Assembly: GCF_032362555.1 (NCBI RefSeq)
Contig: NC_083505.1
Coordinates: 1,141,001 to 1,205,000, forward strand
Reading direction: 5' to 3'
Length of the DNA stretch: 64,000 nucleotides
Source of the DNA: Amyelois transitella
Lineage: Eukaryota; Arthropoda; Insecta; Lepidoptera; Pyralidae
Shown piece after piece: positions 17,188 through 60,769 of the stretch. The position numbers and the translations under genes are program-made. How positions within the stretch are numbered: position 1 is the first letter of the stretch; every line of letters starts with the position of its first letter. The notes beneath the pieces are model-generated. The model saw nothing but the letters and a program-made list of their open reading frames with translations, did not search any database and had not been told where the DNA came from.

Positions 17188-18018
17188 TTTCGAAAAATCA
17201 ATTCACTGCCCCGTTTTGACAAAAGGTCTCACTGACCAGCTGTCAACTTGATTATTTACTAGGCTGTTCTCAATGACACAAAGACAAAAGGCAACGGTGG
17301 CATGGCAACACCACACTACACCGGATGGAACGCCCAAGTAGACTGTTGCTATTTTCTTTAATCGAACTCACATTAAAATTATCAGTATACCCTTAGTTAT
17401 CAGTGTAAAGACATCTAACTGTACCTATAATAAATATGTAGAAGGGTCATTGAAAATAATAAAAAATACGTGGTGGGTTGTTCCTAGATCGATTCTAATT
17501 CTTAAATTTTTTATCTATCTGTCTGTAAGTATTCGTTGCGAGTGTTTATATCAAGTTTTTGTCCTTTGGCTTAGACCCGCGAGTCTTAACATTAGCATGC
17601 TGGTCACGACACAATATTTTTAAAAGCTTTTATTACCTACGATTTGCGTCAACTAGAACAAACTTATTTGCGTTTAATTATTTTCCTAGTCCCTTTACAT
17701 TAAAGTTATTTTTTTACTTGATTTAAATTCACACTAAAAATATTTTACAATCGAGTTTACTATCAAGTAAATTAAAATACACTTAAAAATGAATCCATCT
17801 GTCTCTTCATTTTTACAAAAAAGTTGGTAATGTAATAGAAGTCACATAGTTATAATTTGTGAACAAAACGCATTTTCATGTCGGTCTTGCTTGTCGGCAT
17901 CGGCAGTTTGCGTTTTTTCTATAATTTTTCTCAAAGTTTTGATTGTTCTTCAAATCTGCTGTTTCCATGAAATTCACACGGCAATTATAGGATTTCAAGA
18001 GCATAACAACCAATAACA
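17188..18018. promoter_or_regulatory. Shared upstream region between flower and EDC4
   Basis: The inferred flower start (minus, 17187) and the EDC4 start (plus, 18019) face away from each other with about 830 bases between. Both promoters and 5' UTRs should lie here unless untranslated exons are further away. I recognise no TATA box or named transcription-factor site with confidence. Confidence 0.5.
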
Positions 18019-21000: not shown

Positions 21001-24000
21001 TCTGCAAGTAAGTATGTATGTTTGTTTATTATATTGTTATTTTACAGGTGCAAGACTTGGCATTCGCTCACATTCAGAATCAGGTGATACTGGCGTGTAT
21101 AGACGAGCTGGGGAACTTTTATGTTCACGAGATTGAGGTCACAGATGGTATCAGGTTTGTATATTTTTTTCTGGATACTCTAGTGTAATGGGAATTCCGG
21201 GGTAGCCTACTGCTCCCACATTTTCTTAAAGAGCTTAATCTTATAAAGCCTTAGTCGTTTTGACAGTATGATGTTAGTCAGTCAGACGGTAACACAAAGA
21301 GTTTTATGTCTTTTGATCATATTCATCGATTTATTTATAGTCCTTTAAATACTTAGCTTTGCCGACTTCTTCCTCCTGGCTTTAGTCCCGGTTGGATCCT
21401 CACCACTCTGGAGAGGAGACCGGTAATATGCCTTCCATGGACCCTGGATTGGGTGAGTCAGGTTTTTACACGGAACGACACCCATCTGATCTCCGCAAGC
21501 TGTGCAAGTAATTGGAAACCCGTATTGGATCGATCATGGTTACAAAACCAGTTTCCTGAATGTGCAGGTTTCCTCACGATATTTTCCCTCGTAGTCGGTA
21601 AGGTGTTGTGCATAAAAAAGCATCGGGTTGAATCCCGACGCGGCCATGTACCAATGATTATTTTCAAAGGTATGTACATTAGTTTGAATACTTACCAATA
21701 CTCTTATGGTGAGGGAAATCATCGTGAGAGAATATTCTGGCAACTGGATCTGTAACCATATGATCTTATACGGGTTAGGTTCCCCTGCAAATGTTGCGAA
21801 GGTCAGACGGGAGTCATGCAAAACCTTACCCAATCCAGGATCCATGGTCAAAGGCTTACCCCGGGCTCCTCTTTAGAATGGCGAGGGTGCAACCGGGACT
21901 GCAGCAAGAAGATTGAAATATCGATAATCTATCGACAGTGGACTTTCCAGCAGTACCACTCTTACGACTTCCAGATGCACTAATATCGATGTGGACTTTC
22001 CAGCAGTACCCTTATCACTTCCAGATGCACACTGTTAGCGGAGATCCGTGAAGACACGGGCGTGGGCGGCGCATCAGCTCGCGTGGTGTGGTGCCCTTAC
22101 ATTCCTGACGAGGACGACACACAAGACGATGACGTGGCCAGGCTGCTGTTGACCACACACGACAATATTGGTAACATACATACATATAATCACGTCTATA
22201 TCCCTTGCGGGGTAGACGGAGCCAACGGTCTTGACAAGGCTGATAGGCCACGTTCAGCCGTTTGGCTTTATGATGGAATTGAGATTCAAATAGTGACAGG
22301 TTGCTAGCCCGGTGATGACCTAAAAGAAGAATACCATGTTTGTAAGCCTATCCCTTAGTCGCCTTTTACGACATCCATGGGAACGAGATGGAGTGGTCCT
22401 GTTCTTTTTTTTATTGGTGCCGGGAACCACACGACAATATTGGTAACTTCTCCTCAGTCTGAGGCTCTTCTTCTTTGTCCAACTCTTATTTTGTTACCAG
22501 TTTTTTACCGCTTCTTCTGCACTGACGCCTTGGAAGCGGCAGTAAACTCAGTTTTAAGTAATTTATTTGACGTCAACCAATGTTGTGAAACCAAAAATTT
22601 TGACAATTATTAAGCGATATGAAGTATCCTATAATAATGAATAAAAAAATTGAATTATCCCATTATTTGCGGTCGGGTCTCCTCATTAATTGTCGCCAGG
22701 TTAATCTGTCCAGGGTTATCACATCGGATAGTTGGACTTTCTTGATGTGTCTGTCGATGCTTTTTTTTTTTTTTTGAGTTTGAAAAATACCTTTGTAAAT
22801 TGATCGCGAATTAAGAAGTAGGTACGGTGGTGGAAAGTTATATTGACTTCTAAATTCACTCACGAATTTTGTGAGTTAGGTACTAACGCCCAAATTGACT
22901 TGACCAATGCATTTTTCTTGTCTCAATCAGCGTTCACTTGTCATCCAATTGTAGCCTCTATGGATTCATGTCATAAGTTTAGTGACTCCAAAATGGGTCT
23001 GCTAATCTTCTTCGGTCTTTGCTAATCAGAGACAATTAACCTATCCCACCACCAACCATGGAATAGAATAGAATAGAACTCTTCTTCTATCTCTACCAAC
23101 CTTCCGGTCATCGTCGCCGAATCATGTTCGGAGAGCGCTGCTAGAACGTTTGCTCTTTAGCAGCGCACTATTTCTAGACTCCCTACAGACTCAAGTGTCT
23201 TTTAGTTGTGTCAGAGACAATTTTGAAGAAGATCGAATAGCGTCTCGAAATTGTTCTTTGTCTTTTTAGCTTAAAACACTTGCCAATTGGGCTATTATGT
23301 TAATATATTTATTGGTTTGTGTTCCAAGACAACCTCGCTATAAAAACGTTTGTGTAATTGTATCGGAATCCCAACGGCCATGCCACACTGTTTATCCACG
23401 CTTTACTTCGCGGCAATATCGTCTACACGTCAACAACGTATTCACTCTTTACCCTTCTGAAAACGCTTTTCAATCCGGCAGTGTGGCACATGCTTAATTA
23501 ACCTCGTCGTTTCCAGCTCGCATGTGGAACATGCGCGAAGTCGTCTCCTCGCTGCCGGGCGGCGCGGCGTCGCCGGCGAGCGCGCTGCTGGCGGCGGGCG
23601 GCGGCGCGCTGCAGGCGGCCGAGCACGCCGCGCCGCTCGTGCACGCCGCCTTCTCCCCCGACGGCACCGCGCTCGCCACCGCCGCGCGCGACGGCTGCGT
23701 GATGTTCTTCCAGGTCAGTGTGCGGCCGACAGCTCCAGGACACCTCCCAGCTATACTACAGCTAACTGATCGTGCACGCCGCCTACTCTGCCTCGGTAAA
23801 CTAGCTGCAAGATTGAAACTTTCATACTTCCACATTTACAAAAGACACGTTTTTACGAATTGACGCGTTTTTTTAATAAGATTCATTATTCTTACACACC
23901 ATTTAAAGTAAAAAATGATTTTTATTATATGGTCTGATTTCTACATTTATACACTAGACTACTAGGTCTCGGAAAGAAAGTTTACACCCCAGCGGCATTC

Positions 24001-27000
24001 CTGGCGCCGCATGATAAGCAAAGCCGACCTTGTATAACGGTAAAAGGCGAAGATGAAGAAGAAGATATGGACACCAATACATAAAAAAATAGAACCACTC
24101 CTCTTTCCCATAGATGTCCTAAAAGGCGAATTAGGGCTCACAAACTTGGGATTCTTTTTTTTGACGCGATTGGCTAGCAACCTGTCACTATTTGAATCTC
24201 AATTCTATCATTATGCCACACAGCTGAACGCGGCCTATCAGTCTTTAAAACTGTTGGCTCTGTCTATAGATATAGACATGACTATATATGTATGTATGCC
24301 ACACAGATGATGAAATCCAGTAGACATGTTAAAATTTAACCAACTTCGTCGACAGGTGTACATGCGTAACGAAGCGAGCCCAAGATGTCTGCACAAGTGG
24401 CAGCCGCACGGAGGCAAACCACTCTCCTGCCTCTTCTTCCTCGACAACCATAAGAATTACAACACCGAGTGAGTAGCTATATTCCTATATATATATATAT
24501 AAACTAACCTAAAAGAATATATATTCTGTTAGGTTTGTTTAGTTATGTCCAGGATGCGTCCTTAAATTTTTTTTTATTGTATAAATTTGGATGACCAACA
24601 GCAAATGTTACAAGTATAAGCTTATAAAATTAACATTTAAGAGCCACTCTCTCGACACAAATAAAAAAAAGAATTGGACCACTCAATGTCTTTCCCATGG
24701 ATGTCGTGAAAGGCGACGGCTTATTAACTTGGGATTCTTCTTCAAGGCGATGGGCTAGCAAACCTGTCAATATTTAAATTTGAAATCTATCATTAATCCA
24801 AGCAGCTGAACGTGGGCTATTGGTCTTTTGGCTCTGTCTACCCCGCAAAAGATAAAGACGTGATTATTATATGTATATATGTTGAAACTTACCGTATATT
24901 TATTTAAACTTCATTGTACAAAATACAAATGTATAGCACAATCGGCGGACTTAATGCTAGAAGCATTATCTACCAGTCAACCCTAATTGTGTCTTACAGA
25001 GAACTTTACGTCGGGTCAATCTAACTAAATAAACATATTTATTTATACGTCTACACAAAAATCGAGAAAAGTCGTCAAATATCATCTACACAAAAGTCTA
25101 CACAGAGATCGTGGCAAGTGGAAAGAGGTAGTCTCTGCCTACCCCTCCGGGAAACAGGCGTGATTTTATGTATGTATGTATGTACACAAAAAATATTGAA
25201 ATAAAATATATACACCATCAATTTCAGCGTACAATTCTGGAAGTTCGCCGTGACCGGCGCCGAGAACAACACAGTCATCAAGATATGGTCGTGCAAGTCC
25301 TGGAACTGCATGCAGACGATCACGTTCCCCGCCTCTCTGGGCGCCGAGCCCCCCTCGCCGGGGCTCAAGGCCGCCCTGGACTCGAGCGCCGGCTACCTGC
25401 TGCTGTCCGACTTCATGAGCCGCTCACTGTACGTGATGAATCTCGTGTGGGATGTGGACGACACGACGGCGTACTGTAAGAACATAGCGGAGTTCCTGCT
25501 GCCGTATCCGGTGTTGAGTTTTTGTATCGTTGATGCGGGTGAGTTTGTTGTATTGTAGGTACCTACATACATACATATTGGTCACGTCTGTATCCCTTAC
25601 GGGGTTGACAGAGCCAATAGTCCGGAAAAGACTGAATGGCCACTTCGGCTGCTCGGCTTAATGATGGAATTGAGATCCAAATAGTCGCAGGTTGCTAGCC
25701 CATCGCCTAAAAGAAGAATCCTAAGTTTATAAGCCTATCCTTTCGTCGCCTTTTACGACATCCATGGGAACGAGATGGAGTGGTCCTATTCTTTTTTTTT
25801 ATTGGTGCCGGGAACCACACGGCACACCACGGCACGGCACGGTAGGTACCTACTACTAATATTATGAATGCGAAAGTTTGTGAGTATGACGGGATGTCAG
25901 TATGGATGTTTGTTGTGTTGTGATGTTCACGCGAAAACTACTGAACCGATTACGGTGAAATTTGGTATGTAGGTAGCTGAAGAGTCGGTATAACATATAA
26001 GCTACTTTTTTTATCCCGGAGTTCCCGCGGGATTGATAGGGTTTCCATGCGGGCGGCCTCTATTCATATGTATATACTTGTTCGAGGGAATTTCCTTAAG
26101 AAGAGATTCTTCAAATCAAATGTCTTGACACAAATTAGTTTTAAAAAACGTAAATATTTCATTATAATATTTATTAGTTTCACCTGCGTATCCGTAGAAA
26201 TTATCTCTAAATGCACCCCTAGACCACGTAACAAACTAAAATGACAAATTAATCATGTCTATACCGTGCGGTTTGGACTGTACGTTGGTATATTCGCCAG
26301 TCAGTCAATCAGTTTCATCTCTCATTAATTATTATAAATATTTCATTTATATTAATTAAACTTTATATTCCTTGTGAAATGTTATCAATTTATCTACTTT
26401 TTTTTTTTAATTCCTTTATAAAGCCATACAGTTCAACAAGTTGAACCACTCAACTGTCTTTTCAAGACTATTGGCTCTGTCTACCCCGCAAGGGATAAAG
26501 ACGTAGTAATATGTATGTATACAGGGTGACATTTAAAACAAATGCATCCTTTCAAACATAGACTATACCCATGCTTCTGAGCCGTTTGATCCTATTTTTA
26601 TTTAAATTAAACGTCATCATTTTCACATTTAAAAAACCCTCAGAAACTACGTCACACGCTTTTAGTACACTTAACAGTTAAATTTATGCAGTTGAATTGA
26701 AAGTACACCCTGTATATGTGAACGAACGAACTTGAAGAAGTACTTTCTCTCTTCTTAACTTTATTCATGGTAATATTCATTTTAATCAATCTATTTTTAT
26801 ATAGGTATGTATATTATTATGTATTTATTTATTTTGTGTAATATTATGTATGTAATGTATGTCTGTGTAAGTTTATATATTTATAGTTTATGTATGTGTG
26901 TAGTTTATTTATTATACACTAACTAACATTTCTCATGTATGCTGCCCACCCGGTTCCAGGATTTTACCTTTCACTATCCAAAGGTTGGCTGGAAGAGATT

Positions 27001-43633: not shown

Positions 43634-45811
43634 CCGCCGTGCGGTTGTGTGTGCAGACCGCGATAGGGGAGGTAATTGACGCACCGGCCTGATGATTTGT
43701 TAAATATATTGATCGATTATATGCATACAAATGATGGATTTATTTGTTTATCTGTGTAGCACTCACAAGGTTATAATGACTATAAAGACTGTATACAAAA
43801 CTGAAAGACATGCTGTATGAAAGTTGGATAATAGCGGTTACATAAAGACTTGAAATAATTTTCCCTGTTGTTAAAAAGATTTGACTAGCGCCATCTGTTG
43901 GATATAGCGGGAAACACGGCATGTCACTGACGTGAATAATACAATATGGCAGCTAGTATTTTACCCGCCATTTTTAGCGCCCCAACGGGTGAACTGAATA
44001 TACGATTACAGTTTGATGTAAAATGGTGGCCATGTTGTATGAATTCTGAGAAAGAACACTAGTCTATTGTACAATTTATATGGCCTTAAATTAAAAAAAG
44101 AAAGCGAAATAACTGTCCGTCAGTACGCTCACGTCAATATTGAGAAAATATATATTTTTTTAATCGCCTATGTGAGGTCAGTACATTATAGAGGTCAGCG
44201 CCATCTTTTGGCGAGTAGTATTGAAACAAAATTATTTGTCTGTAGGTTAAAAAAAATACCTTTTATCAATAGCGGCAAGCTTATCACAGGATTATTCTAT
44301 ACATACATAATTTAAATAACTTGTGAACAGTTTTGTGCAATCACTACTACTGTTACTTGTATTTATCATACCTATATGTTTTCTTATATCTACATAAATT
44401 GGTAAATAAATAAAATACATACATAAACAAAAATCAATGAATATGTTTAATAAATTATCAAATAAATATAACGTGCGTCTCTCTTATCGCGTGGAACACT
44501 TGTGATTGTAGTTTACATGGACACTTTAAGTGAGAGTGAGAAACGAGACGTGTAAGAGACACTAACAGAAGACTTGCTGTCTAATTTGGACGCTTAAATG
44601 TGCTGATTTAGATGTAAGTATATTTCATTTGCTGATAAAGTTAATTTTACAAAATGCTCCGTCGAAACATGTCTGCAAATTAACATCTTAATAAGTACGT
44701 TTAAGTGGTTTCTGTGGTCGGGTGACTGTGGGAAACAAAAGGCTCCTAAAAACGCGTACTTTAATATATTTATTAAAGACATTTCACTCACTACGGTCAG
44801 TCATTTCGCGCCTAAACCACTAAACCGATTTTGTTCAAATTTGGTACAGGGATAGATTTGACCCTGAGGCTAAGAAGGGATTAAAAAACGGGATAAAATA
44901 TTGGCTAGTTATATTTATAATTTAAAGCTACAGTTAACTTTGAATTCACGACAAATTTGTGTCAAGTTTACAATAGCTTTATCAGCAAATTGAAATTGGA
45001 CAATGGGATCTCCCCAAGACGTATTTTTATTATCAAACACAGCTATAAGACTGTTATGTTGTAATTTAAGATTTTCGAATGCAATCCCAAAATGAGGAGT
45101 GTAAGCTTTGTTGAAAATGTTAATGTGAATAATTTCTTATTAATATCGCTACTAATATATACATATGTATATTACACTGTATTATTAAATTTATTTTTGT
45201 AAGACTCTGTCATCGGTTACTGTTATTAGGAATGCCGGCCAGCCCCCGTATTATAGCGCGCGCGACGCCGTTATAATCGCGCGAGAAACTATTGCTATTT
45301 CGCTGTTTATTATGAAGTAAAACGGGATAGCGATAGTTGCTGCTGCTGGGACTGGGTGTGTTGCTATTATGTATAGTAAACGAGTGTATGACAATGATCT
45401 ATAGATAACAATAATGTTGACTCAGTAAGCGTGTTAATTTCTCAAATAAATGATCATTTATACTCTTTTGGTGTTGTTGGTGAAAAGATGTTTTTTTTTT
45501 AAACAATTTAATAATTACAGTTGCCTGAATAATAAATAAGGTTAACTCATTCCTAGATGTTCACACGGTCCAGTAGAAGTCAGTAATTACACGGTAAAAC
45601 ATTTTCTGACCTCCTTGGCCCTGTTACAAGAAGACCGAACCCGGCTCGGATGATGACCTGTTGCATTAGGTGCTTACTCCTTTAATTAAATTTGGTACAG
45701 AGTTGGATTTGACCCTGAGGCTAGGAAAGGGTTAAAAAAACGGGATAAAATATTGGCAGTGAACAACAGATCACGCGGTCACACTTACCCACGATAAATT
45801 TATTCATCATG

Positions 45812-45945: not shown

Positions 45946-48169
45946 ATATAAAGCTTTCTAAGGACAAAATAATATGAACTGTACAAAATGTAGTTGATAA
46001 GTTTTATTGCGTAATTTTATTACGGTAATAAAAACAGGAAAGGTTATCGCTCTCATAAGTTACAATAATGATTATATCAAAGTATGATTCTAAATGGAAA
46101 AAAGAAAATGTGGGGATAAGAAAACCAAGAGGTACCTTGGTCAACTCTGACACGTTCTTATGAACGATCAGGTCAGGAGTTCTTTATGAAGCGAAATATA
46201 TAATCAGGGGTCATATGGCAAATGCGAAAATGTGGTTACTACATAGAAAGGGTGTAATTATAAATATTTTGTGTCAATACCTTTATTTGACACTGACCAG
46301 ACATGCTATCTATTCCCTTCTAGCGCACAGCATCAAGATAAAACTGTCTCGCTCTAGCATTTCTCTGCGCGCCTCCCATCTGAACGCGCCGGGTAGCCCT
46401 AGCGTAGTACCTTTTTAAGGCTAGGTGTTAAAATTGACAGTCAAGCTTCGGTAAGACCAAAATAATTTTTTTTATTTCTTCGGGGGAAAACGTCCAAAAA
46501 CATAAAATTCGTCCAAAAATGTATCTTAATGTATTACTATAAAGCATACAATACAAATCCCTAAAACTTATTGTAGGTAATTTTTTGATGCATTTTTAAA
46601 GGTTATTTGTATATCATGTGAGGCCACTTTTTGTTTTTTTTTATCATGCTTATTTTCTCATACGTGAATCTTAAAGTAAATCGAACTTTGTATGTGTAAA
46701 ATACACTTAAAAATCTGAGGTTCCCAAGCATATGACCACTCTGACCCCTTTCTATGAATGTTTCAGAGTCCTCTAATTAAATAACCAGTTTCACTTACCA
46801 TGGTTCAAAATGGATACAGTACATATATCTGAAATTCTGTGGATCGTGTTTATTGTCTGACCCCGGGACCCCGACAACTTTTGAAGATATTACCTTTTTG
46901 ACCTCATTGTGTAACCGAGCCAAGCAGAGAATATGAATAGAAGTAGACTAAGGCTTACAAATTGTAAATATTCAATATAGAAGAAGCTAGATTCTTACGT
47001 ATTTAATGATAGTGCATAAAATAGCTGAACGTGACCATTCAGTCTTTTCAAGACTGTTAGCTCTGTCTACCCCGCAAGGGATATAGACGTGACCATACGT
47101 ATGTATGTATGAATGATAGTGCTAAAGACCGTGCGTTCGACCAGAGTGTATCACTTTGGTGCTATGTATTTGAAATCTCCTGCTAATGCTATTATGCTTT
47201 TTATCTCTAGGACAGAAGTTATGTTTTCAAATGCCACACATCAAGCCTGTTCAATCTTTCAATCAAATCAAATCTGTGTGACTATGTTTCTTTTTATCGT
47301 ATACCTACTTAAAAAGAAACGATTCGTTAGTTAGTTCTTTTGATTATATTTCAATATTGTATTCATTACGGAAGTTCAGCTGTTCTATCTTGTTTTTGAT
47401 TCCGTTTTTAACGCGCTTATATCATTCTATTGTTGATGGTCATGATGATGATGAATGGAATCTTTGGTTAGAAGGAGAGGAAAGATGATAGGAACATAAT
47501 GTCATGTTTACGTTCGTGAAAAACCACGCATGTCGCTAAAACTACAATAGAAAGATGTAATCGTCGTGAAACTAACTAAAATATTTGCTTATAGCTGCAC
47601 TCTAGACATTATTTGTTGAATATTTAGACTTTAAACAGTTGATTTTTAAATTCGTGTAACAGAATTCACAAAGTCTGGGTATTATTAAAAGTTTAGATTG
47701 TTTTTGTGTCCTAGGACTGTATAAATAAATTTGACAAATTTAACAAATCAATAAAATTACCTGAATAGATTTTTTTACTAAGAAGGTAAATTGTCAAGGA
47801 AGTTTTCCATTTTCAAAAAAGAAATCATGGAAGTTTTCCGTGACCTTTGATTTAGAATTATGGAAACTTCTGTTGATTTAATTTGGCTCCGTTTAATTAA
47901 GTCTTTTTTGATTGGAACTAAAAGAACACTACAGTTTGTATTTTTGTTTGAATCTAGCGAAGGCGTTCGCTTTATTTTTTTCTTATGTTGATGTTAGAAT
48001 GTGTAAGAAATGTATAAATAATAAAAGCCTATTGATTTGTAACGTTGTTTATTTTTATTATTTCTTTTGTCTAATACTTAGTAATACTTAGGCATCATCT
48101 TAGCAAAATTATGACACAAAAAGTACTACTTAGTACCTACTTCATACTATGTTTTGTGATTTTTTCTAT

Positions 48170-48290
48170 CGAATAAAAATCCTGGCAAAGGGTCAGGTCA
48201 AGCGAAGGAAGTATGCAGAGATCGTAGCAAGTGGAAAGATGTAGTCTGCCTACCCCACCGGGAAAAAGGCGTGATTTTCTGTATGTATAT
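48170..48290 (+). repeat. SINE-B fragment
   Basis: It contains cctggcaaagggtcaggtc, gatcgtagcaagtggaaag, tctgcctaccccaccggg and a tatg tail. Confidence 0.75.
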
Positions 48291-48704
48291 AACTACCTAT
48301 GTATGTTTAGCTGCACCCAAAAAGAAACTGCTAGCATACACTGTTTTATTTGCTATCAGATTATATGATGGCACTGGATGATAGATTAGCTGAGATTTTT
48401 GCAAATACATACTTACCTTTACCTAAGCTTCTGTATCTGTTGATATGTATTTACTTTATATCTCATGGGGAAAGTATTTCGTGATGTTGAGAACACTTGA
48501 ACCATGAGATAAGTCAATTAATTACAATAAAATACCACCATAAAAAATCTCATTGAAATTGATTCAACAGTATGACCGCGTAATAATAACGAAGCTACCT
48601 CACGCATAAAAACTATTATAAAAATAAATGTGGGTAGCACCAACCAATTTTACAAAAAAGTGCGAAGGTTATAAATTCACACATCGTTTATCCTCTCTTG
48701 AAAA

Positions 48705-51700
48705 ATGTCCCCCGAGTCCAAGCCCTTCATGAGATCAAAGTCTTTGTGTTCCTTACACGACTTCCCTTGCAGGGAGTCTTTCCAAAGCTATAGTGCATGT
48801 TATAGCCGCAGAAGCGACTCCTCGGTCGAAATCTCCATGCCGGGATGCGGATCCGATGTTTGGATAAAAGACAGCTACCTTAGAACCATCTCACCTAGTA
48901 GCGCGAGTCTGAAGAATCTGGAGTTTAAGATTGATCGCCTAAACGGTGAGTATTTTTCACATATGAACACATCTTATTCTGCGCGTTACATCCACACCTT
49001 TCTGAGCACATCCTGAGATCATACCATGATCCAGGATCATTGGGTAAGTCAGGTTTTTAATGCGAACGAAATCCATCAACGTTTTTGTATAGTAGAGTAT
49101 TTACCGTTTTACACAGTTACCTGAACGTGCAACTTTCCTAAAGATGTTTTCGATCACCGTAGTAAAAGCTTCGGCTCTTAACTTTGAGAAGAGTTATTGA
49201 ATGTGGGCGAGGTTAGGATTTGAACCTGTATCTCCATGCGCATCACTAATTTCTTTTTCGCATCTTGTCTTTCTTACCAGCGACGCTCTTCCTTTATTCT
49301 TAACTAGAGGCCGCCCGCAACTTCGTCCTCATGGAAACCCTATCGATGCCGTGGGAACTCCGGGATAAAAAGTAGCCTATATGTTATTCTGGGTTTTCAG
49401 TTACCTTCATACCAAATTTCATCGTAATCGATTCAGTAGTTTTCGCGTGAAAGAGTAACAAACATCCATACTGACATACTAACAAACTTTCGCATTTATA
49501 ATATTAATAGGATGTATTTTATCATATTCCTAGTTCGGGAACCAGGGCTAATTAAAACTTGTATGCAAGCTAAAAAGGGCTAAACAAAAGATTGATTATT
49601 TATTTTTACCGTTAATTAATAATGCAATATCAAATAACTTGATCATTACAAACTAAAAAAACTACTTAGGTAATTAAGAAAAAATATGATTAACTCTAAA
49701 ATTAAATTTACAAAATGATTACAGTCCCTGCAAAGCATCAATTTGCGGGAGTGTGCCCAGAAGGCAAAAAGCATTGTAATTTTGAATGGCATCGCTGTTC
49801 TCTGGTGCCAGATAATTTCCGGATTTATTATTGTTCCGAATTTTATGACCACCATTTCACTCCAATCTTACGTAGGTCGTTTTTCTAAATAGAATTCATC
49901 AACGTTTGGTTTCAAACGTGATGACTAAGTTAAAGATGGCAAGTTAGGTAACATTAAAACTATTGCGTTAATGAGTTTGACGACGCTTTGGAAGCGGCAG
50001 TGAACTTAATTTTAAGTAATTTATTTGACGTCAAACAATGTTCTTAATGTCTAAGTACTTAATATTGTTTTAGATATATTCACGGAACAGTGCTCATTGT
50101 TATCGGCGATCAAGGATGACATACAAGAGACCAAATCAGTCATGAATTGTGAATTTAACGAAGATCTGTTTGAGGAGTTGTCCGCAAAGGCTATCGCCGT
50201 TATGCAAAGGTGATTTTATTTTTATTAAAATTATCGATATTTTGTATTTCTGTTTGTAACGAAACGAATAACATACATGTGTATAGTAAAATCACCTCTA
50301 TTTCCGTTACGGGGTAGACAATGCAAACGTTTCGAAGAGACTGAAAGGCCAAGTTCAGTCCGGTTGTGGGGCATGTGGTATTAAAAATCACATTACCTTA
50401 AGCAGAATTCCAACCCAAGTTTACGAGTATATTAACTTTTCACTTTATTGAAAAGAATAAACATAAAGGTCAGTGGCGGATTTACCAACAGGCTGAGTAG
50501 ACCTAGGGCGGAGGATTTGAGGGGGCGGCAAATTCAGCACCAAAAATTTATTTTTCTTACAGAAATAAAAAAATACCTAAGTACTTAAATATAAAGTATT
50601 TTAGTTTTCCAATTATAAAATTTGACATTTGACCTCCACCTTAATTTCTCCGTGTGGGAATCGAATGCAGTTGTCTGGGATATAGACGTGATTATGTGAT
50701 ACTTGTGATGTCACAAGAGGCGGCAAAATTTGAACAGCCTACTGGCGGCAAATGCGTTAATCCGCCACTGATAAAGGTACTTTGTTGATGAAATTTGTCA
50801 CAAAGATAGCCTATACCTCAAACCGCAGGTCCCGAGTGCGAATTCCGGCCAAGATTATGATTCTTGGATACATTACATATAATCACATCTATATTCCTTG
50901 CGGGGCAGACAGAGCCAGGGTAGTCTTGAAAAGACTGATAGGCCACGTGCAGCTGTTTGGCTCAATGATAGAATTGAGTTGGAAATAGTGACAAGGTTGC
51001 TAGCCCATCGCCTAAAAGAAGAATCCCAAGTTTATAATCCTATCCCTCAGTCGCTTTTTACGACGTTAATGGGAACGAGATGGTCGTCCTATTCTTTTTT
51101 TATTGGTGTTTTTTTACTGATTCTTGGATAAAAGTTATTTAATTAAAATATTGTAAGTATCCACTAACACAACTCTTGAACGTTGTTATTTTAGGTTATC
51201 TCTATCTGAGAGTTATCACCAAAAGTAAGTACCTATAAGTAATTATTTTTGTTGCTTTGTTTATGTGATAGTATGACAGTGGAAGCTATGTGTTTATTTA
51301 TATTTTTGTGACATGAGATAAGTGAAGACCTTTGGCTTTTATGAGTTATGATTACTCCAATAAATTCCCAAAACTTTCTCTAAGATTTAAGTCCTTTTTT
51401 TAGTTAGTAGTTTTAGTCTCATTGTATAGAAAGTCGACATAAATTTGGCTTATTTTGCTAGTTTATAGGGCAGCATTATTCAATATCATATTATTAATAT
51501 TGCAGGTATCTACTTATTACCCCAAGCATCATTCACTCCATCAGGATTGCATAAATTTCAGACGGTATTACCAACCTACGTAATACGAGGAACTTGTAGT
51601 GTTCTAGCTAAGTTCTAGCAAATCAAATTATTATTTCCTAAGTCTCTACCTTGTCATTATATTTACAAGTGTTCTTTGATAAAAAATTAACTTTTATGTA

Positions 51701-54470
51701 GCAGAATAAACGAGCTGAACGATGGGGAATGGTCGTTTGACCAGCAGAACTCTCGGGCCACTAGTCTGCTGAACGCGATCGAGTATCGGCCGCCCGTCTC
51801 TCTAGATCGAGAGATTAGGAGAGCGTTGTCGGAATTCCTAGATAACGAAGTAAGTTTTTTTTACCTAAAATTGGGGTAAACTGTGTAGATGGCAATATAT
51901 AAAAAATAAAACCAAACCCGCTTGCTACAAGAGGTACAATAAGAATGACTTTGTGTTTGGTCGCGCAAAAAGGAGATTAGAGATCTTCGTCTTGGGCAGC
52001 TTTAGCCATGTCCATGCATCAAGTTTTCACATTAACCGTTCTTAACCGTGCTTTCATGCCGAAAAAGATATGGAAACACATTAAAATATTAATTAGGAAT
52101 GCGGTCAACTGTACCGTTTAAATAAAGTATTGTAACAAGTTTAATTTTAGTCATAAGCCGTAAAGCTGACTGTTGGCTCTGTCTAACCGGCAAGGGATAT
52201 AGACTTCACTATATGTATTTAAATTTTGTCCGTAGGAATTAAAAGAACGGATTGTAACTGCCACTGCAGAAGCCGTTAAAGAGGTGATCAGCGGCTGTCT
52301 GTCTAAAGACATGTCTGATATATACCTGCCCACCATGGAACGCTCCCATCGCAGACTCTCCCGGCACATGGCCAGAGTACTAACAGATGCCTTCGAACGG
52401 TGTAAGATTTTTTACTTGCAATAAAAAGTGCACAGGATATATTTGAAACGATCTCCGAATCAACAAGTAGACCTTCAACTTTCCCTGGGAATGTAACCGA
52501 AGATACCCTAAATTTAAGAGGGAACTCGAACTGTATAGATAGCTTGAACATACTATCGTAAGTTAAATGACGCCGGCAAACTTTTTCCTTTCATAATAAC
52601 CCCAATTTGACAGAACTTGTACATTTTCAGATGAAAACTCTGCCATGTTTATGAAGCACACACACCGCGCCTCTCGAGCGCTCCGCCGCTCCTTGGAGCA
52701 GCACGAGCTTCTGTTGAAAACCTCCAACCCCGCCGCCCTGCACCAAGTGGTGCATGATACTATAGGACAGTGAGTACCTACTTTCTGCAATGTTGGTATC
52801 TTGTCAAGGGAAAGGCCAGCAAACTTGGGATTCTTCTTTTAGGCAATGGCCACCAACTTGTAATTATTTGAGTCTTAATTTCATCATAAAGTTGTTCAGC
52901 TGATTGAGCCAGTTTTTTTAAGAAGTTGCTCTGTCTGTAAGGAATATAAAACGAAACTTAGCTGAAATTTGGCATGTTTCTTTATATTGTTTATGCCTTT
53001 TTAACTGGCAAGCAAGAAACACCTACAATAAAAATAGTATTTACTATCACTTGTATTCTATTTTTACGTCACCGCGTATAACCGCCGAACATAAAATACA
53101 TGTAGGTACCTAGTTTATTACTTGTTTATTAAAAAACTATTGCATGTTTATGAAACAGTATTTTATTAAAGCTAAAATTTGTAGGTTTTTGAAGACCGAG
53201 CTGAAGGAGTGGCGGCAGAAGGTTCTAGAAATGCTTACGACGGAACCAGAGGATGAACCAGAGGAACCGAGTCCGTCAATGCTTCCCACTACACCACAGC
53301 CTGCGGACCCTGAAATATCATTAGTAGATCAACTGGTATTTCAATTTTTCATTCTCATGTTCTCCTACATGTTATATGTTTAGATTTAATAATCATATAC
53401 TTTTGGTTTGTTAAATTAAAATAGTTGATACACAATATCTGACGTCACGGTAGTGCCCCCACCAAATTGAGCAAAAATACCCCAGGCCATACTATCCTTT
53501 TCTAGAAGCTAATAAATAGAAATAATATTAACCCAACGTTAGTATGTTAGATAATTATATTTCGTATGATGAACTGTCCGTTGTCCATTGACAAATATTT
53601 TATTTCATAATCAAATTTGTAAAAAATACCTACTTTAAACCATATAAATACTTAATAATCGTAACAAACGTTTTATTATCTAACAGATGCGGACAGCAGT
53701 AATCAACAAATTTATCGAAGATGGCGACGTGAACGGTGCATTCTCCAACGCCCTGTCAGCCTCCGACCTGTCCCTGGTGATGACGGCCTGCCGCGGTGCA
53801 GACCCGGCGACGGTGTTCACCCAGCCCTGCTTGCTGGAGCAGTCGGTGTTGTTGTCGCTTATACAACAACTTGCGACTGACTTAGTGCATGAAACACAAC
53901 TAAAATGCAGGTTTGTTCTCTCACAAATTTTGATAACTTTTATCGAGAAGACATCCAAAATTTTAAGAATGTAATATAGCGTGGTGCGGCCACTATACGC
54001 ACCACGGTATATTACAAATGAGACACTCCGTCACGAGCTGGAAATCAAAATAGTGAGAGAAAAAATTACAAAGAGAGTATTTAGTAAATTACATACAAGG
54101 ATCGACTTCACTTTCGACTTCACCCAAATGCTTATAAAATAATAGGAGGGTACCAAAAGATCTACTTACTTTGACCTGTAGAGCTAAATGAGAGATATGT
54201 AACTGGACTCGAAGAATTTCCGCAAAAGAACATTTTGACGCTGTTATTTATTACGTATAATCTTGTTCTACTTACTTGTACCTTTACAGATATCTGGAAG
54301 ACGCTCTTATCAACTTGAATCTGACCGACCCAAACACCATGGCCCACCTTCCCATGGTGGTCGGTGACGTCCGCAAACATCTGATGAAGTTCCTTCACGC
54401 CTACCCCAGCCATGCAGCCAGTCGCAGGGTTGCACTCATTGTCATGGCCGTCGATAATTTACCTAAGTAA
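48705..54470 (+). CDS. EDC4-like protein, C-terminal half only (no WD40)
   Basis: Eight exons, 460 aa, frame intact: 48705-48945, 50074-50209, 51705-51849, 52236-52401, 52631-52769, 53185-53335, 53687-53910, 54290-54470. About the first 70 residues are Ser/Cys-rich and unlike EDC4. From NLEFKIDRLN (EDC4: LDHKIDKLR) the order matches EDC4: helical region, FERYENSAMF, an acidic stretch (EPEDEPEEPSPS), then the C-terminal domain with ASDLSLV, LLSLIQQLATDL and YLEDALINLNLTDPNT. Intron phases 1,2,0,1,2,0,2 equal those of EDC4 exons 17-24. In EDC4 the C-terminal domain is known to be helical and needed for P-body targeting, so a role in P-bodies is a reasonable inference. Start ATG has a good aaaaATG context; an upstream exon is not excluded. 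Two AATAAA words follow (54469, 54534). Confidence 0.88.
49305..49515 (-). repeat. Interspersed repeat, copy of the 25855-26060 type
   Basis: The reverse complement shares aactactgaatcgatta, ccggagttcccacgg and gaggacgaagttgcgggc. It lies in EDC4-like intron 1. Confidence 0.65.
50871..51117 (-). repeat. SINE-A with 13-bp target-site duplication
   Basis: It is flanked by tgattcttggata at 50858-50870 and 51118-51130. The insertion is in EDC4-like intron 2, so SINE-A has also been active in the copied gene. Confidence 0.88.
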
Positions 54471-55146
54471 TAAAAATTATATTGTATGCTCATTATTTTT
54501 AAGTTTGAATTTTCTTACCTTGTGTAATTTTAAAATAAAAAAAATATTTGATTAATAATCATTTTGCAGTTTTATTGAAAGTTTTAATGAAACTAAGTTG
54601 GGAAACTTAGTTTATCCATTGGAAATGCCGTAAAGTATGCAAAGATCATGGCAGATGGAATTTTTTTCCATGTGGATGCCGTTAGGTATGGAATTGAATT
54701 GGATGGAAAAAAAAGAGGCATGGTTTTAAGTATGTATTCAAAGGAGACCCTCGATGGCCATCGGTGAAAGAATTCAATTAATTACAACTAATTCAATCGA
54801 AATAAATACGTCTTCATTTGTGGAAGTGTTCAAATCAAAAGTCATTAGTTTAACCCTTCGTAACTATAAAAGGTAACGCTAAGCAAGAAATGGACCAAAC
54901 ATTAAAATTATTATGATAGGGAAAATTTTGACAGATAGATAACACGGGGAGATTGGGAAAGATAAAGCTTATTAGGATGGTAACCCCATGTTGTAACTGT
55001 CATCCGGTCATTAGCTTTGCTTTATTTGTGCCGCTGATCCTATTTTATAAAATAAACAAGATAAAAAATGAATTAGCATATCAAAGCATTTGAGCTATAC
55101 CGTGCAGTGCATTCAATAAAGACTGGAAGGAAGTGCTAAAAATAAA
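54471..55146. other. Spacer between EDC4-like gene and reticulocalbin gene
   Basis: It holds the EDC4-like 3' end (AATAAA 54534-54539) and the upstream region of the reticulocalbin gene. I see no coding exon and only weak repeat-like patches (54650-54740). Confidence 0.5.
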
Positions 55147-58100
55147 ATGGCCCCGCAGTACATTTTGTCGCTGATCCTTCTCCTCACCTACAATATGGTG
55201 CAGCATTGTGCTTCTGCAGCGGTTCACAGCCACAGCCTTGAGCAGAACCAGGAGCGAGAGTCTGATGGGAGTTTTCGTCCGCGAGACTTCGACCACTACA
55301 GCGAGGGCAGTCACAACTCTGAGTTCGACCACGAGGCCATATTAGGTATAGTTTTATTTACATTTTTTGTTTTATGACGTCTGCCGATCGCCGGCCGTTC
55401 CGCGTTAGTTGTTGATAACAAATGTACTAGACGAGGTTGCGATGTCGCTGCAGCGGGCACTGGCTCTCTCCGTGCCGTGTGTATTGCTAGTGACGTATTA
55501 TTTCACTATCAAAGAATACGGCGGATTGGATTTTGGTACTGTATTTTATAATGAACTGTTAAATTACTACTTGTCGTTAAGCAACAGTTTCCTATTAGCT
55601 GTGGTAAGACTTGTAGCTATGTCCATGCTTTATGTTCTGTGTCTAAGTGTTTGTATAATATTCGTGACTTTTTATTTCACTTTGTACAGCAATATGAGAA
55701 ACGAAGTGAAAAATTTAGGTGCAGGTATCAACATATTTTTATTTATATTCTTTTTGTCATAGGTAAATTAAATAAAATAGGTATTTATTGCCACCTTAAT
55801 GTATTTCCTAAAAAAATTCAAGTGAAAAAAGCTCTCTTTTTTAATTGTTAATATGTAAAATAAACCAGTAATCTAATATTTAGAATCATTTAAAGACATT
55901 CTAAAGCTTTATTCAACAATGGTCTGTTTATTAACTGTGAGAAAAAAAATTGTTCTTCATCCATTTATACTCGTCTTTATCCTTTGTGGGGTAGCCAACA
56001 GTCTTGAAAAGACTGAAAGGCCTTGTTCAGCTGTAGTTCTTCATATAAGTAGATCAATTTTAATCATTTGACCACAGGTAGTGTAAAAGAAGCTGAAGAG
56101 TTTGACAAGCTGAAGCCGGAGGAGTCCCGGCGGAGGCTGGGGCAGCTCCTGCCGCAGATGGACCTCAACAAAGACCAGAGCATCGACAGGTCTGAGCTGA
56201 AGGCATGGATTCTAAACTCATTCATGTGAGTCAATTTTATGTTATCTACCTATATCTACCAACTGTAAATTATTTATTTACATTCTTACATGTTTACCCT
56301 TGTGGGTAGACAGAGCCCGAAAACTTAATAAGCCATATGTTTAGCTAAGAGGCCTAAACAAGGAATTGACAAAAAATTTACTTTATTGTAAAAGAAATTA
56401 TGATAAAGCAAATTATCTTTTATATCTAAATCTAATATGTAAAAGACGACACTCTCACTGATTAATTGACTAACTACTAATCAATGACCAGGACAAGCTG
56501 ATTAGTTAATGAGTACACTAAAAAACTATTTCCTGATATGCCCATCGGGACAAAATCAACTCAGAAATAAATTTTACACCTCTGTAGCCGCAAGAGTATT
56601 CATAACGGTAACATAATAATTGTAGTAGTTGTAGTAAAAATGTTTTATCACTGATAAGACTTCTATTCTTAGTGTATGAAATCTGAAGTGTGGTTGCGAC
56701 ATGTAATTTCAGTGTTATAGAGATTCTAGTATATAATTTAAAGTCGGAGGTACCTATTAACTAAAAGCTGTGGGTATCTCAAAATATTGTTGCCAATTTT
56801 TTTTCTTTTGTTGGTATTGTAATCTTCCGTAATCGTCGAATATGCATGAAAAGAGTAATGAGTGTGGAGGAAACGGGATAGGTCTGTAAGGATCGTAGCA
56901 AGTGGAATTCCGTAGTCTCTGCCTACCCCAATGGGTGGGTGAAATCTTCCAGATTCCTGACAATTTTATTTTCACGGTATGTTAATATCAAGTGAATATG
57001 AGTTTTGTTTCTGACTCATTCAAAATTCCATATTTTATAACTAATACCAAATAGTTTCAATCGACTTTAAATCGTAGCCTAAATAAGTACCTACTTAAAA
57101 TAAATGAATGAATGTAGGTAGTTCGTGATATTTATCGTCACAAAACAATAGACATTGTCTTTTGGTTTTTCTCTTGATAGGTAGATCAAAACAAATGATA
57201 TCATGGCCATGTTTCTGGCAATAATAATCACGCCTATATGTCTTACGGGGTAGACAGAGACTTGAAAAGATTTATAGGCCACATTCAGCTATTTGGCTTT
57301 AAGATAGAATTGAGATTCAAATAGTGACAGGTTGCCAGTCCATCGCCTAAAAGGAGAATCCCAAGTTTATCTGTAAGCCAATCCCTTAGTCGCCTTTTAC
57401 GACATCCATGGGAAAGAGATGGAGTGGTCCTATTCTTTTTTAAATTGGTGCCGGGAACCACTCGGTACACATAAATACATAAAATCACGCCTTTTTCCCG
57501 AAGCGGTACGCAGAGACTACATACTTACAACTTGGACAGTACCTTGCAGAAAACTATCCAAAGAGGAAGCTGAGGAACGCATGAACGAGGTGGACAGCAA
57601 CAAGGGCGGGCTGACATTCATAAAATCACGCCTTTTTCCCGAATTAAGGACGTCCTGGTAAAGGGTCAGGTCAAAAGTACCCGAAACCGCCGAGCTTGTA
57701 TGAAGAGAGTTATGAATGTGGATGAAGCGTGAATGTGGATGAAGCGAAGGAAGTATGCAGAGATCGTGGCAAGTGGAAAGTGGTAGTCTCTGCCTACCAC
57801 TCCGGGAAAGAGGCGTGATTTTATGTATGTATGTATGTATGTATTTTCCCGAAGCGCTACGGAGAGACTACATACTTAGCACTTATTTTTATTTTTTTTA
57901 ATATTTTGGACATACCTTGCAGAAAACTATCCAAAGAGGAAGCTGAAGAACGCATGAACGAGGTAGACAGCAACAAAGACGGGCTGGTGACGTGGCCGGA
58001 GTACATGCAGGACGCGTTCGGGGCCGACGACGACGAGGAGGCCGGCCCGGGGGACACCGGCGACACCGGCATGGTGCGTTTGTTACATACATATGGTCAC

Positions 58101-60769
58101 GTCTATATACCTTGCGGGGTACAATACAAATTATCTTTATTGCCCATAAAAAAAAACAAACGTAGTAGAAACATACATTATGAACATGTTGAGCAAAGGC
58201 GGACTTATCGCTAAGCAATCTCTTCCAGCCAACCTTTGGGTAGTGAAAGGTAAAATCCTGGAACCGGGTGGGCAGCATATTTAAGATATGTTAGTTAGTG
58301 TATAATAAATAAACTACACACATACATAAACTATAAATATAAACTTTGTTGCACACATACATACATATGGTCACGTCTATATCCCTTGCGGGGTAGACAG
58401 AGCCAACAGCGTTTGTTGCACACATACATACATACGGTCTCGTCTATATCCCTTGCGGGGTAGACAGAGCGAACAGTCTTGAAAAGAATGAATGGCCACG
58501 TTCAGCTGTTTGGCTTAATGATAGAACGGGGCCGACGACGACGAGGAGGCCGGCCCGGGGGACACCGGCGACACCGGCATGGTGCGTTTGTTGTTGGCGA
58601 GATTTATGTGTGTTTGTTTGTTTGTAATATATTTCTTGTGCCGTGTGGTTCCCAGCAGTGCCGTGTGGTTCCCAGCACCAATACAAAAAAGAATAGGACA
58701 ACTCCATCTCTTTCCCGTGGATGTCGTAAAAGGCGACTAAGGGATAGGCTTACAAACTTAGGATTCTTTTTTAGGCGATGGGCTAGCCTGATAGGCCACT
58801 GTTTAGTTGTATGGCTTTATTGAAATAGTAACAGGTTGCCAGCCCTTCGCCTAACATAAGAATCCCTTAGTCACCTCTCACGACATCCATGTGGGAAATG
58901 AGATGCGAGTGGTCTTATTCTTTTTGTATATTTACAGTTGGTGCGAGAAGAGAAGTTGATGTGGGCGATCGCAGACGTAGACGGCGACGGCGCGCTCAAT
59001 TTTGAGGAGTTCAAGGTGTGTAACAATTTAAATAAAACATATATGTTGTACGTACATACAAATACATACATAAAATCACGCCTCTTTCCCGGAGGGGTAG
59101 GCAGAGACTACCTCTTTCCACTTGCCACGAACTCTGCATATTTCCTTCGCTTCATCCACATTCATAACTCTCTTCATGCAAGCTCGGCGGTTCCGGGTAC
59201 TTTGACCTGACCCTTTACCAGGACGTCCTTAATTTGATCAAGATACGTTCGTCTAGGTCTTACCACTCCGACCTTTCCCTCCACACCCATGTTGTACATA
59301 TATTTTAAAATTACAAACTAGAGCTTATTGGTGCCGTACGGTTCCGATCAATAGAGAATAGAATAAGACCAGTCCATCTCTTTCCCATGGATGTTGTTAA
59401 AAGCGAGTAAGGGAAAGGCTATACAGCTGAACATGGCGTTTCAGTATTTGCAAGACTGTTGGCTCTGTTTACCTACCTTGTATGGTAAACATACATATAC
59501 ACGTCTATATCCCTTGCGGGGCAGACAGAGCGAACAGTCTTGGAAAGACTGATAGGCCACGTTCAGCTGTATAGCCAGCCGATCCCTATATTGGCTTAAT
59601 GATACTGTTTTCAAGATTCAAATAGTGACAGGTTGCTAGCCCATCACCTAAAAGAAGAAATTAAATAACAATTATTCGATTACAGACATTCTCAAACCCC
59701 GAGGAGCATGAGGTGATGTTCCCGTTCCTGGTGAACCAGACGCTGAAGGACAAAGACGAGGACAAGAACGGCAAACTGGACTTCCACGAGTATGTAGGCT
59801 CCAGAGGTGGGTCCATCAATCATTAGAACAGAATAGATTTCTCTGCTTAGAAATTATTCCACTGCTTGGCTTTAGCTTGGCTGCATCTTACCATTCTGGA
59901 GAAGAAGCCGCAGGGTATGCATTTGACCTTGGACCTGAATTGGGTGAGTCAGGTTTTTACACAAAACATATTAATGTAATAGTATAACCTAAATGTGCAG
60001 ATTTCCCCACGATGTTTTCTATTCTCGTAAGAGCATCGGTTGGTATGCAAACAAATGTACATAATTACGAAAATAGTCATTGGTATATGGCCGAGGTGAG
60101 ATTTAACCATTTTTATGGTGCACTTTACCGATTCGACCACCAACACTCTCAAACTAGCTTAACAACTCTTCCCTCTTAAATTAACTACTTTCAGTTGAAT
60201 CAATCTGTATAGACTTCATGTAATATTTTTATTTTGATTGAACAGGAAGACACGAAGACAAATCATGGCTTGTATCTGAAAAGGAGAAATTCGATGACCT
60301 CGACCTGGACGGAGACGGGAAACTTGACGAGAAGGAGGTCAAGAAGTGGGTCATACCGGACAATGAGTGAGTACCTTACACTCGTATAGACGGCATTTAA
60401 GTTAACGTCCTCAATTGTAGGCTAAAATATACTTTAGGTATCATACTAACACACTTAACTCTAAATTGGCATTATTACCCCTAGTAAATGGGATTAGACA
60501 ACTAACAAAACTCGTTAACTCAACTGTTCGTCTGAACTTTCAAAAACAAATAAAGATCCTTGTATGCCAATTAGTGAGATAGTCGCGTGTCTGTCTTCAG
60601 GGAAATCGCCGAGGAGGAAGTGGATCACTTGTTCACAGCGGCCGACGACGACCACAACGATGTACTGTCGTTCGAGGAGATCCTGGCTCACCACGACGTG
60701 TTCGTGGGGAGCGAGGCCACCGACTACGGCAGCGACCTCTACGGGGAGCACTTTGACGACGAACTGTGA
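55147..60769 (+). CDS. RCN2: Reticulocalbin-2-like ER calcium-binding protein (CREC family)
   Basis: Seven exons, 328 aa, frame intact: 55147-55345, 56078-56225, 57923-58073, 58938-59015, 59686-59806, 60246-60366, 60601-60769. A signal peptide (about 1-25, MAPQYILSLILLLTY...) is followed by FDHEAILG. Six EF-hand loops all have Glu at position 12: DLNKDQSIDRSE, DSNKDGLVTWPE, DVDGDGALNFEE, DEDKNGKLDFHE, DLDGDGKLDEKE, DDDHNDVLSFEE. One N-glycosylation site (NQT, about 209) is visible. The tail SEATDYGSDLYGEHFDDEL parallels human RCN2, which ends in HDEL; here the last four residues are DDEL, still a plausible ER-retrieval signal. CREC proteins are low-affinity calcium binders of the secretory pathway. 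Candidate poly(A) signals are at 61306 and 61946. Confidence 0.93.
55442..55724 (+). CDS. Possible alternative first exon of the reticulocalbin gene (membrane-spanning)
   Basis: The ORF lies in intron 1. ATG 55442 opens 94 codons with two hydrophobic segments (about LALSVPCVLLVTYYF and VAMSMLYVLCLSVCIIFVTF). GCA G|gtatca at 55725 is a possible donor in phase 1, the phase needed to enter exon 2 (56078); another phase-1 donor lies six bases earlier. The joined product would be 356 aa with the full EF-hand region. Upstream DNA is GC-richer (ccgatcgccggccgttccgcg), as for a promoter. It could also be a small nested gene or chance; there is no homology evidence. Confidence 0.35.
57225..57470 (-). 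repeat. SINE-A copy in reticulocalbin intron 2
   Basis: It runs from aataatcacgcctatatgtc through ggttgccagtccatcgcc to gccgggaaccactcgg. Confidence 0.8.
57477..57845. repeat. SINE-B pieces with a copy of reticulocalbin exon 3 start
   Basis: A SINE-B tail (57477-57530) leads into cttggacagtaccttgcag and then 60 or so bases copied from exon 3 (KLSKEEAEERMNEVDSNKGG) up to about 57612. An opposite-facing SINE-B follows, ending in a tatg tail at about 57845. The real exon 3 starts at 57923 after a similar SINE-B remnant, so a unit of SINE-B plus acceptor plus exon start has been duplicated. Confidence 0.8.
58133..58285 (-). repeat. Inverted copy of the 26935-27105 repeat
   Basis: It shares tttattgcccataaaa, ttgagcaaaggcggactta and ggaaccgggtgggcagca in reverse orientation. 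Confidence 0.65.
58360..58805. repeat. SINE-A pieces with a copy of reticulocalbin exon 3 end
   Basis: Two SINE-A tails (about 58360-58410 and 58425-58527) run into cggggccgacgacgacgagg at 58527, a copy of the last 56 or so bases of exon 3 with its donor (ATG|gtgcgttt, about 58583). A reverse SINE-A (about 58660-58790) follows. The junction ttaatgatagaa|cggggcc lies within the SINE-A body. Confidence 0.8.
59060..59290 (-). repeat. SINE-B, long copy
   Basis: It has the same word order as 32886-33115: catacataaaatcacgcctc, ggtaggcagagactacct, gcaagctcggcggttccgg, tacgttcgtctaggtctta. Confidence 0.8.

Follow-up and report, generated by a model that had tools for sequence, protein, structure and literature searches.

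A truncated EDC4-like gene beside EDC4 in Amyelois transitella, a probable old paralogue of the C-terminal part of the decapping scaffold

In the publications that bear on it, EDC4 (Ge-1) is described as a single large scaffold of mRNA decapping whose WD40 and C-terminal halves have different partners. A 64,000-nucleotide stretch of the genome of Amyelois transitella (Lepidoptera, Pyralidae; NC_083505.1, positions 1,141,001 to 1,205,000; hereafter, the window) raises the question whether the C-terminal half can persist as a gene of its own: besides EDC4 itself, it contains a truncated EDC4-like locus, denoted here EDC4L (48705-54470, plus strand). The two lie in tandem on one strand, with 5.1 kb between the end of the EDC4 stop codon (43633) and the start of EDC4L (48705). 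A preliminary description, based on the DNA letters, had portrayed EDC4L as an eight-exon gene for a 460-residue protein that resembles the end of EDC4. Is this a gene, how did it arise, and what might its product do? Judging from the sequence, EDC4L is a genuine gene under selection, a shortened paralogue of an established scaffold, for which an attractive putative role can be proposed.

Joining the eight exons rebuilt from the window (Table 1) yields 460 codons and a stop codon, without internal stops, as described earlier; in addition, all seven introns have GT..AG borders, and an AATAAA motif is present at 54534, beyond exon 8. For comparison, EDC4 was modelled over its last eight exons (17-24 in the numbering of the preliminary description), plus two WD40 frames detected with Pfam, and its intron phases were derived from the exon lengths and the open frame. 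The EDC4L intron phases (1,2,0,1,2,0,2) recur at 7/7 positions in the final eight exons of EDC4, an agreement that has a chance probability of 1/2187 if phases are independent and equally likely, and a 166-bp exon occupies the same place in both genes (52236-52401 in EDC4L and 39736-39901 in EDC4); both correspondences had been claimed previously and hold for the rebuilt exons. At the protein level, the match goes beyond the C-terminal two thirds reported in the preliminary description: blastp aligns residues 67-460 of EDC4L with EDC4, up to the end of the latter (120/414 identical, E 9e-48), and only the first 66 residues lie outside the significant match. In a full-length MAFFT alignment, the identities to EDC4 for EDC4L exons 1-8 are, respectively, 16/60, 6/40, 8/41, 13/55, 12/47, 12/38, 42/74 and 23/59, and in one extra segment, EDC4L exon 3 is aligned with the second of the eight EDC4 exons (2/5 residues identical).

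The domain content of EDC4L points in the same direction. The EDC4_C domain (Pfam PF21289) extends over residues 332-449 (E 1.7e-36; 125 bits vs a cut-off of 27) and is matched at profile positions 1-119 of 121; of the six other Pfam families reported with E up to 10, not one attains its own cut-off. The sole strong match to a solved structure is 2vxg, the C-terminal domain of Drosophila Ge-1 (E 1.7e-20), followed by a designed protein at E 0.0094. In the same tests, the C-terminus of the neighbouring EDC4 yields E 4e-41 for EDC4_C and 9.4e-24 for 2vxg. EDC4 also matches Ge1_WD40 in pieces of two frames (E 2.1e-9 and 1.6e-23); for the 460 residues of EDC4L, no WD40 match is found among the seven Pfam families at E up to 10, a search in which the HMMER filters drop most weak matches, and the previously noted lack of the WD40 region is upheld to this extent. 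The anatomy of EDC4L is an N-terminus of its own of 66 residues, a diverged stretch where EDC4 has a coiled coil, a linker and EDC4_C, with no propeller. Taken as sequence evidence, these features indicate that EDC4L is very probably a functional paralogue of the EDC4 C-terminus that originated by duplication at the DNA level.

The seven introns at homologous positions bear out the earlier claim of a non-retroposed origin. The preliminary description had been more specific, proposing tandem duplication of the 3' part of EDC4; duplication at the DNA level stands, and a 3'-only event is not distinguishable from a copy of the whole gene that subsequently lost its 5' exons. When the 5 kb upstream of EDC4L was searched with the two EDC4 WD40 frames, there were no matches, these being the only two frames of that part known to encode WD40. 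In a broader search for WD40 remnants, 68 of the 290 frames from 18.5-36.4 kb matched the stretch between EDC4 and EDC4L, giving 79 matches. Of these, 78 coincide wholly or in part with two repeat places, and the remaining one is weak (44813-44866, E 0.005). Dispersed repeat families are located between the two genes at approximately 46993-47175 and 48153-48333. In other genomes, scans for relatives gave 3 pattern matches in viral contigs and 24 in prokaryote genomes, with no relatives in either set, as expected for an insect gene.

Table 1. Coordinates of EDC4L and of the EDC4 features compared with it (positions in the window)
Feature	Positions	Strand	Remarks
EDC4L exon 1	48705..48945	+	Start codon; 66-residue stretch without convincing EDC4 counterpart; then the homologous helical region begins (SLKNLEFKIDRLN)
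EDC4L exon 2	50074..50209	+	136 bp
EDC4L candidate microexon	51195..51224	+	In intron 2; 30 nt, in phase, optional; GTAAGT donor; adds 10 residues (470-residue form)
EDC4L exon 3	51705..51849	+	145 bp; alternative acceptor (start 51702) adds one residue
EDC4L exon 4	52236..52401	+	166 bp, equal in length to EDC4 exon 39736-39901
EDC4L exon 5	52631..52769	+	139 bp
EDC4L exon 6	53185..53335	+	151 bp; end of helical region, then acidic, proline-rich linker
EDC4L exon 7	53687..53910	+	224 bp; first part of EDC4_C (Ge-1C) domain; 42/74 aligned residues identical to EDC4
EDC4L exon 8	54290..54470	+	Remainder of EDC4_C domain; stop codon
EDC4, last eight exons (paralogue)	36387-36578, 37672-37804, 39100-39280, 39736-39901, 40853-41015, 41624-41738, 42602-42822, 43444-43633	+
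EDC4, stretch with two WD40-region frames	23498..25555	+	Ge1_WD40; frames 23498-23860 and 25205-25555

Several lines of evidence suggest that EDC4L has been under constraint for a long time. Within EDC4_C, 64/131 residues are common to EDC4L and EDC4, 52/124 to EDC4 and Drosophila, and 48/124 to EDC4L and Drosophila, with 40 of the 52 positions that EDC4 has in common with Drosophila retained in EDC4L. These identities hint, weakly, that the duplication occurred after the split from the fly lineage, a comparison of three sequences of one domain in which rates may be unequal. Over 124 columns of this domain, there are 8 unique changes in EDC4, 12 in EDC4L and 21 in Drosophila, the difference between EDC4 and EDC4L being not significant (chi-squared 0.8). 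For all 419 codons aligned between EDC4L and EDC4, the proportion of synonymous differences (pS) is 0.75, that is, saturated, and that of nonsynonymous differences (pN) is 0.48; the respective values are 0.74 and 0.33 for the EDC4_C domain (133 codons) and 0.76 and 0.54 for the coiled-coil stretch (216 codons). Such pairwise values include constraint on the EDC4 branch as well; what points to constraint on EDC4L itself is that its frame is open, its splice sites are undamaged and it has changed in EDC4_C at a rate similar to that of EDC4. We also simulated neutral evolution by placing random substitutions, and no other kind of change, in the EDC4L frame (equal base frequencies, 200 runs per distance). 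At 0.05 and 0.1 substitutions per site, 21/200 and 2/200 runs, respectively, were still open, and at each tested distance from 0.2 to 1.2, none of the 200 was; at comparable protein identity, about 15-19 stops accumulated. The GC content at third codon positions (GC3) of EDC4L is 0.59 vs a GC content of 0.34 in its own introns. Altogether, the sequence comparisons support the conclusion that EDC4L is old and has been long maintained by purifying selection, and the saturated synonymous sites and the simulation agree with the earlier view of an old copy that is still open and probably selected. As a separate observation, GC3 of the EDC4 C-terminal exons is 0.82 compared to 0.59 in EDC4L, despite the near-equal GC content of the introns (0.35 and 0.34).

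What could such a protein do? We propose that, after duplication of the EDC4 3' exons at the DNA level and under purifying selection since, the EDC4_C domain would bring EDC4L to processing bodies (P-bodies), where it would be a scaffold subunit devoid of WD40, holding some of the decapping machinery (DCP2 and perhaps DCP1) without the WD40-dependent partners. By inserting into EDC4 oligomers or competing with them, EDC4L would lower or redirect the activity of the decapping scaffold in the cells that express it. Taken as a whole, this scenario, a selected EDC4/Ge-1 paralogue that would act as a P-body-targeted, WD40-less subunit co-assembling or competing with EDC4, has in our estimate about an even chance of being correct. 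Published results on individual parts of EDC4 are compatible with it. Human EDC4 that lacks the N-terminal part is reported to form cytoplasmic, P-body-like dots and to recruit DCP1a, CCHCR1 and EDC3, and in the same assay, LSm14a, PATL1, XRN1 and NBDY require the WD40 part (PMC9987799). The C-terminal region of C. elegans EDC4 is reported to form coiled-coil tetramers and to be captured by a DCP2 peptide, with a DCP2-binding cleft predicted for the worm protein and, together with the same arrangement, for human EDC4 (PMC13103063). An over-expressed distal fragment of human EDC4 is reported to be dominant-negative (PMC12475165). A more ambitious version, which we put forward tentatively and consider rather unlikely, is that an insect lineage has fixed EDC4L as a specialized factor, under control of its own, that antagonizes or tunes the decapping scaffold, that is, a natural WD40-less EDC4 in P-bodies that would split mRNA storage from decapping in particular tissues, for example, eggs; such a tuner would parallel in nature the shortened constructs with which P-bodies have been dissected.

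As for the site of action, the germ line or silk gland suggested in the preliminary description has no basis in the sequence. In a butterfly transcriptome studied for oogenesis, EDC4/Ge-1 is reported as not found (PMC3654919), which is mildly against the germ-line guess. The silkworm gene BMSK0001678, annotated as "enhancer of mRNA-decapping protein 4", is given the values -6.1, 2.7 and 0.7 and is not assignable to either EDC4 or EDC4L (PMC7859555); Drosophila Ge-1 and oskar are treated in PMC3105097, which we cite only as background.

The 5' end of EDC4L is the least settled part of the gene model. An in-frame TGA (48699-48701) lies just before the ATG at 48705; however, because exon 1 contains two acceptor-like sites (48773 and 48812, both phase 2) that leave room for an upstream first exon, the N-terminus and the start at 48705 are uncertain. 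The unique 5' stretch has a coding score of 0.143 in its own frame, whereas in 94 intergenic windows the best forward frame never exceeds 0.011; yet one of its reverse frames scores higher still (0.233), and when the stretch is split, the part from 48705 to about 48770 scores 0.43 and that from 48774 to 48905 only 0.026. Among the arthropod initiator motifs searched for in 48301-48720, none was found, and only TATAAA occurs there, at 48617 and 48670. Intron 2 contains the candidate microexon listed in Table 1, the inclusion of which leaves the frame open. In 14,903 bp of non-coding sequence, no other pair of sites attains its score, a level that the candidate itself reaches by construction. 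With the microexon included, the score of the whole-protein alignment increases from 467 to 473, but 16 of 139 random in-frame insertions do equally well or better, and the exon-level alignment score worsens from -17 to -20. The combined length of 30+145 bp comes close to the 181 bp of EDC4 exon 39100-39280; nevertheless, we rejected the microexon as the missing part of that exon because homology lends no support, and it stays an optional candidate.

The co-assembly scenario has to be weighed against several observations that speak against it. The coiled-coil exons of EDC4L align in order with those of EDC4 and are poorly conserved (15-26% identity); exon 3 of EDC4L encodes Pro-Pro within the coiled-coil stretch; and in a scan for heptad periodicity, which is not decisive, the best window reaches z 2.7 of 31 windows for EDC4L (470-residue form) vs z 3.8 of 30 for EDC4. 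These three features make oligomerization of EDC4L with EDC4 doubtful. Furthermore, of the three EDC4_C arginines common to EDC4 and Drosophila, EDC4L keeps two, the third being replaced by methionine; an arginine of this domain, which may be a kept one or the replaced one, is reported to be necessary for P-body localization in Drosophila (PMC8984151). Finally, the papers conflict on the partners, with other work assigning DCP1 to the WD40 part and XRN1 to the proximal C-terminal part. For DCP2 in C. elegans, too, the reports diverge, with binding described in PMC13103063 in contrast to PMC8984151. Given the poorly conserved coiled coil, the Pro-Pro, the weaker heptads and the missing third arginine, the main rival is an independent adaptor: EDC4L would be selected, but its coiled coil would have diverged too far to mix with EDC4, so that it would form its own oligomers and act as a separate adaptor, perhaps with other partners, and EDC4_C would do no more than bring it to P-bodies or to a related type of granule. 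The distinct N-terminus and the contrast between EDC4_C exon 7 (42/74) and the coiled-coil exons (6/40, 8/41, 13/55 and 12/47) fit this alternative. However, coiled coils frequently drift in sequence while keeping their heptads, and the EDC4 coiled coil is itself unusual, being alanine-rich and encoded in C-terminal exons with the high GC3 noted above, so that the divergence need not have taken place in EDC4L; on balance, we regard a separate adaptor as possible but unlikely.

The remaining alternatives question whether EDC4L is an active gene of its own. The EDC4L exons could be an alternative 3' end of EDC4, joined to it in transcripts that skip the EDC4 C-terminal exons, so that one gene would have two C-termini. 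Every homologous junction is indeed frame-compatible, the two exon sets lie in tandem on one strand only 5.1 kb apart, and the acceptor-like sites in exon 1 could receive such a splice; but these sites are in phase 2 vs phase 1 for the intron preceding the homologous EDC4 exon, EDC4L starts with an ATG of its own that follows closely on an in-frame stop, and its unique 5' stretch is coding-like, with the reservations on the reverse frame and the second part given above. Further AATAAA motifs are present between the two genes, and the terminal exons of EDC4 are intact, so we hold this arrangement to be improbable. Even less probable, in our view, is a recently silenced gene, selected for most of its history and no longer expressed in this species: the failure to find initiator motifs upstream would be in line with silencing, whereas there are no disabling changes in 460 codons and 14 splice sites, and even 0.05 substitutions per site leaves just 10.5% of the 200 simulated runs open. 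That EDC4L is a processed or decayed pseudogene or a chance chain of exons appears extremely improbable, and we found no point in favour of it. A retrocopy is rejected given the seven introns, which are at homologous positions; a decayed, unprocessed copy, given the lack of stops, frameshifts or lost splice sites and the retained codon constraint; and a chance chain, given the open frame, the EDC4_C match in Pfam and its PDB counterpart, the GT..AG introns and the shared phases.

Apart from EDC4L, the window includes several other features. A 120-bp tandem repeat (40953-41331; 3.2 copies at 99%, with the three full units identical at 120/120 positions) overlaps a coiled-coil exon of EDC4. Each unit, equivalent to 40 codons and open in frame, includes the end of the EDC4 exon and a splice donor (41016, 41136 and 41256). 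Because the unit is open and has its own donor, donor choice could add 40 or 80 residues to the coiled-coil region of EDC4. The repeat could result from a recent expansion or from the assembly, or it could be polymorphic. A LAMTOR5 frame is located at 1629-1928 (Pfam E 8e-33 over 90 residues of the frame), and downstream of EDC4L, two frames in 57819-59207 match EF-hands; we take these to be calumenin- or reticulocalbin-like. A short minus-strand frame (16883-17197) with a hydrophobic stretch has no Pfam match at E up to 0.01.

A duplicated insect EDC4 was not found in the open-licence literature that we searched; genome annotations, in which the gene is perhaps already named "EDC4-like", were outside this search. 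The long survival of a gene for only the C-terminal half would demonstrate that selection can act on a function particular to this half, and EDC4L would offer a natural tool for establishing which P-body functions depend on WD40. Given the exon-by-exon match to EDC4, orthologues of EDC4L should be readily identifiable in other genomes.

Among known systems, a close counterpart of EDC4L is its neighbour EDC4, with the same intron phases and exon order. With full-length EDC4/Ge-1 scaffolds in general (Hedls; Drosophila CG6181), EDC4L has in common the EDC4_C domain and the position of the helical region; in contrast to these, it lacks the WD40 propeller, has its own 66-residue N-terminus and contains a shorter, diverged coiled-coil stretch. 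Neighbouring EDC4 paralogues, like EDC4L beside EDC4, occur in Arabidopsis as VARICOSE and VARICOSE-RELATED, the products of an unrelated plant event, both of which retain WD40. Pdc1 of Schizosaccharomyces pombe combines a coiled coil with a Ge-1C domain (structure 4Q2S) that contacts Dcp1:Dcp2, and EDC4L likewise has a Ge-1C domain, preceded by a stretch that corresponds to the coiled coil; unlike EDC4L, Pdc1 has a WD40 region, and 17% identity is reported between its C-terminal region and Edc4 proteins (PMC4320757). EDC4L can also be compared with the WD40-less constructs of human EDC4, namely, 630-1437 and 935-1437 (PMC9987799) and 974-1401 (PMC12475165), the last two of which, comprising the proximal helical region and the distal helical domain, correspond approximately to EDC4L; whereas those fragments are laboratory constructs, EDC4L is a natural, separately inherited and diverged gene.

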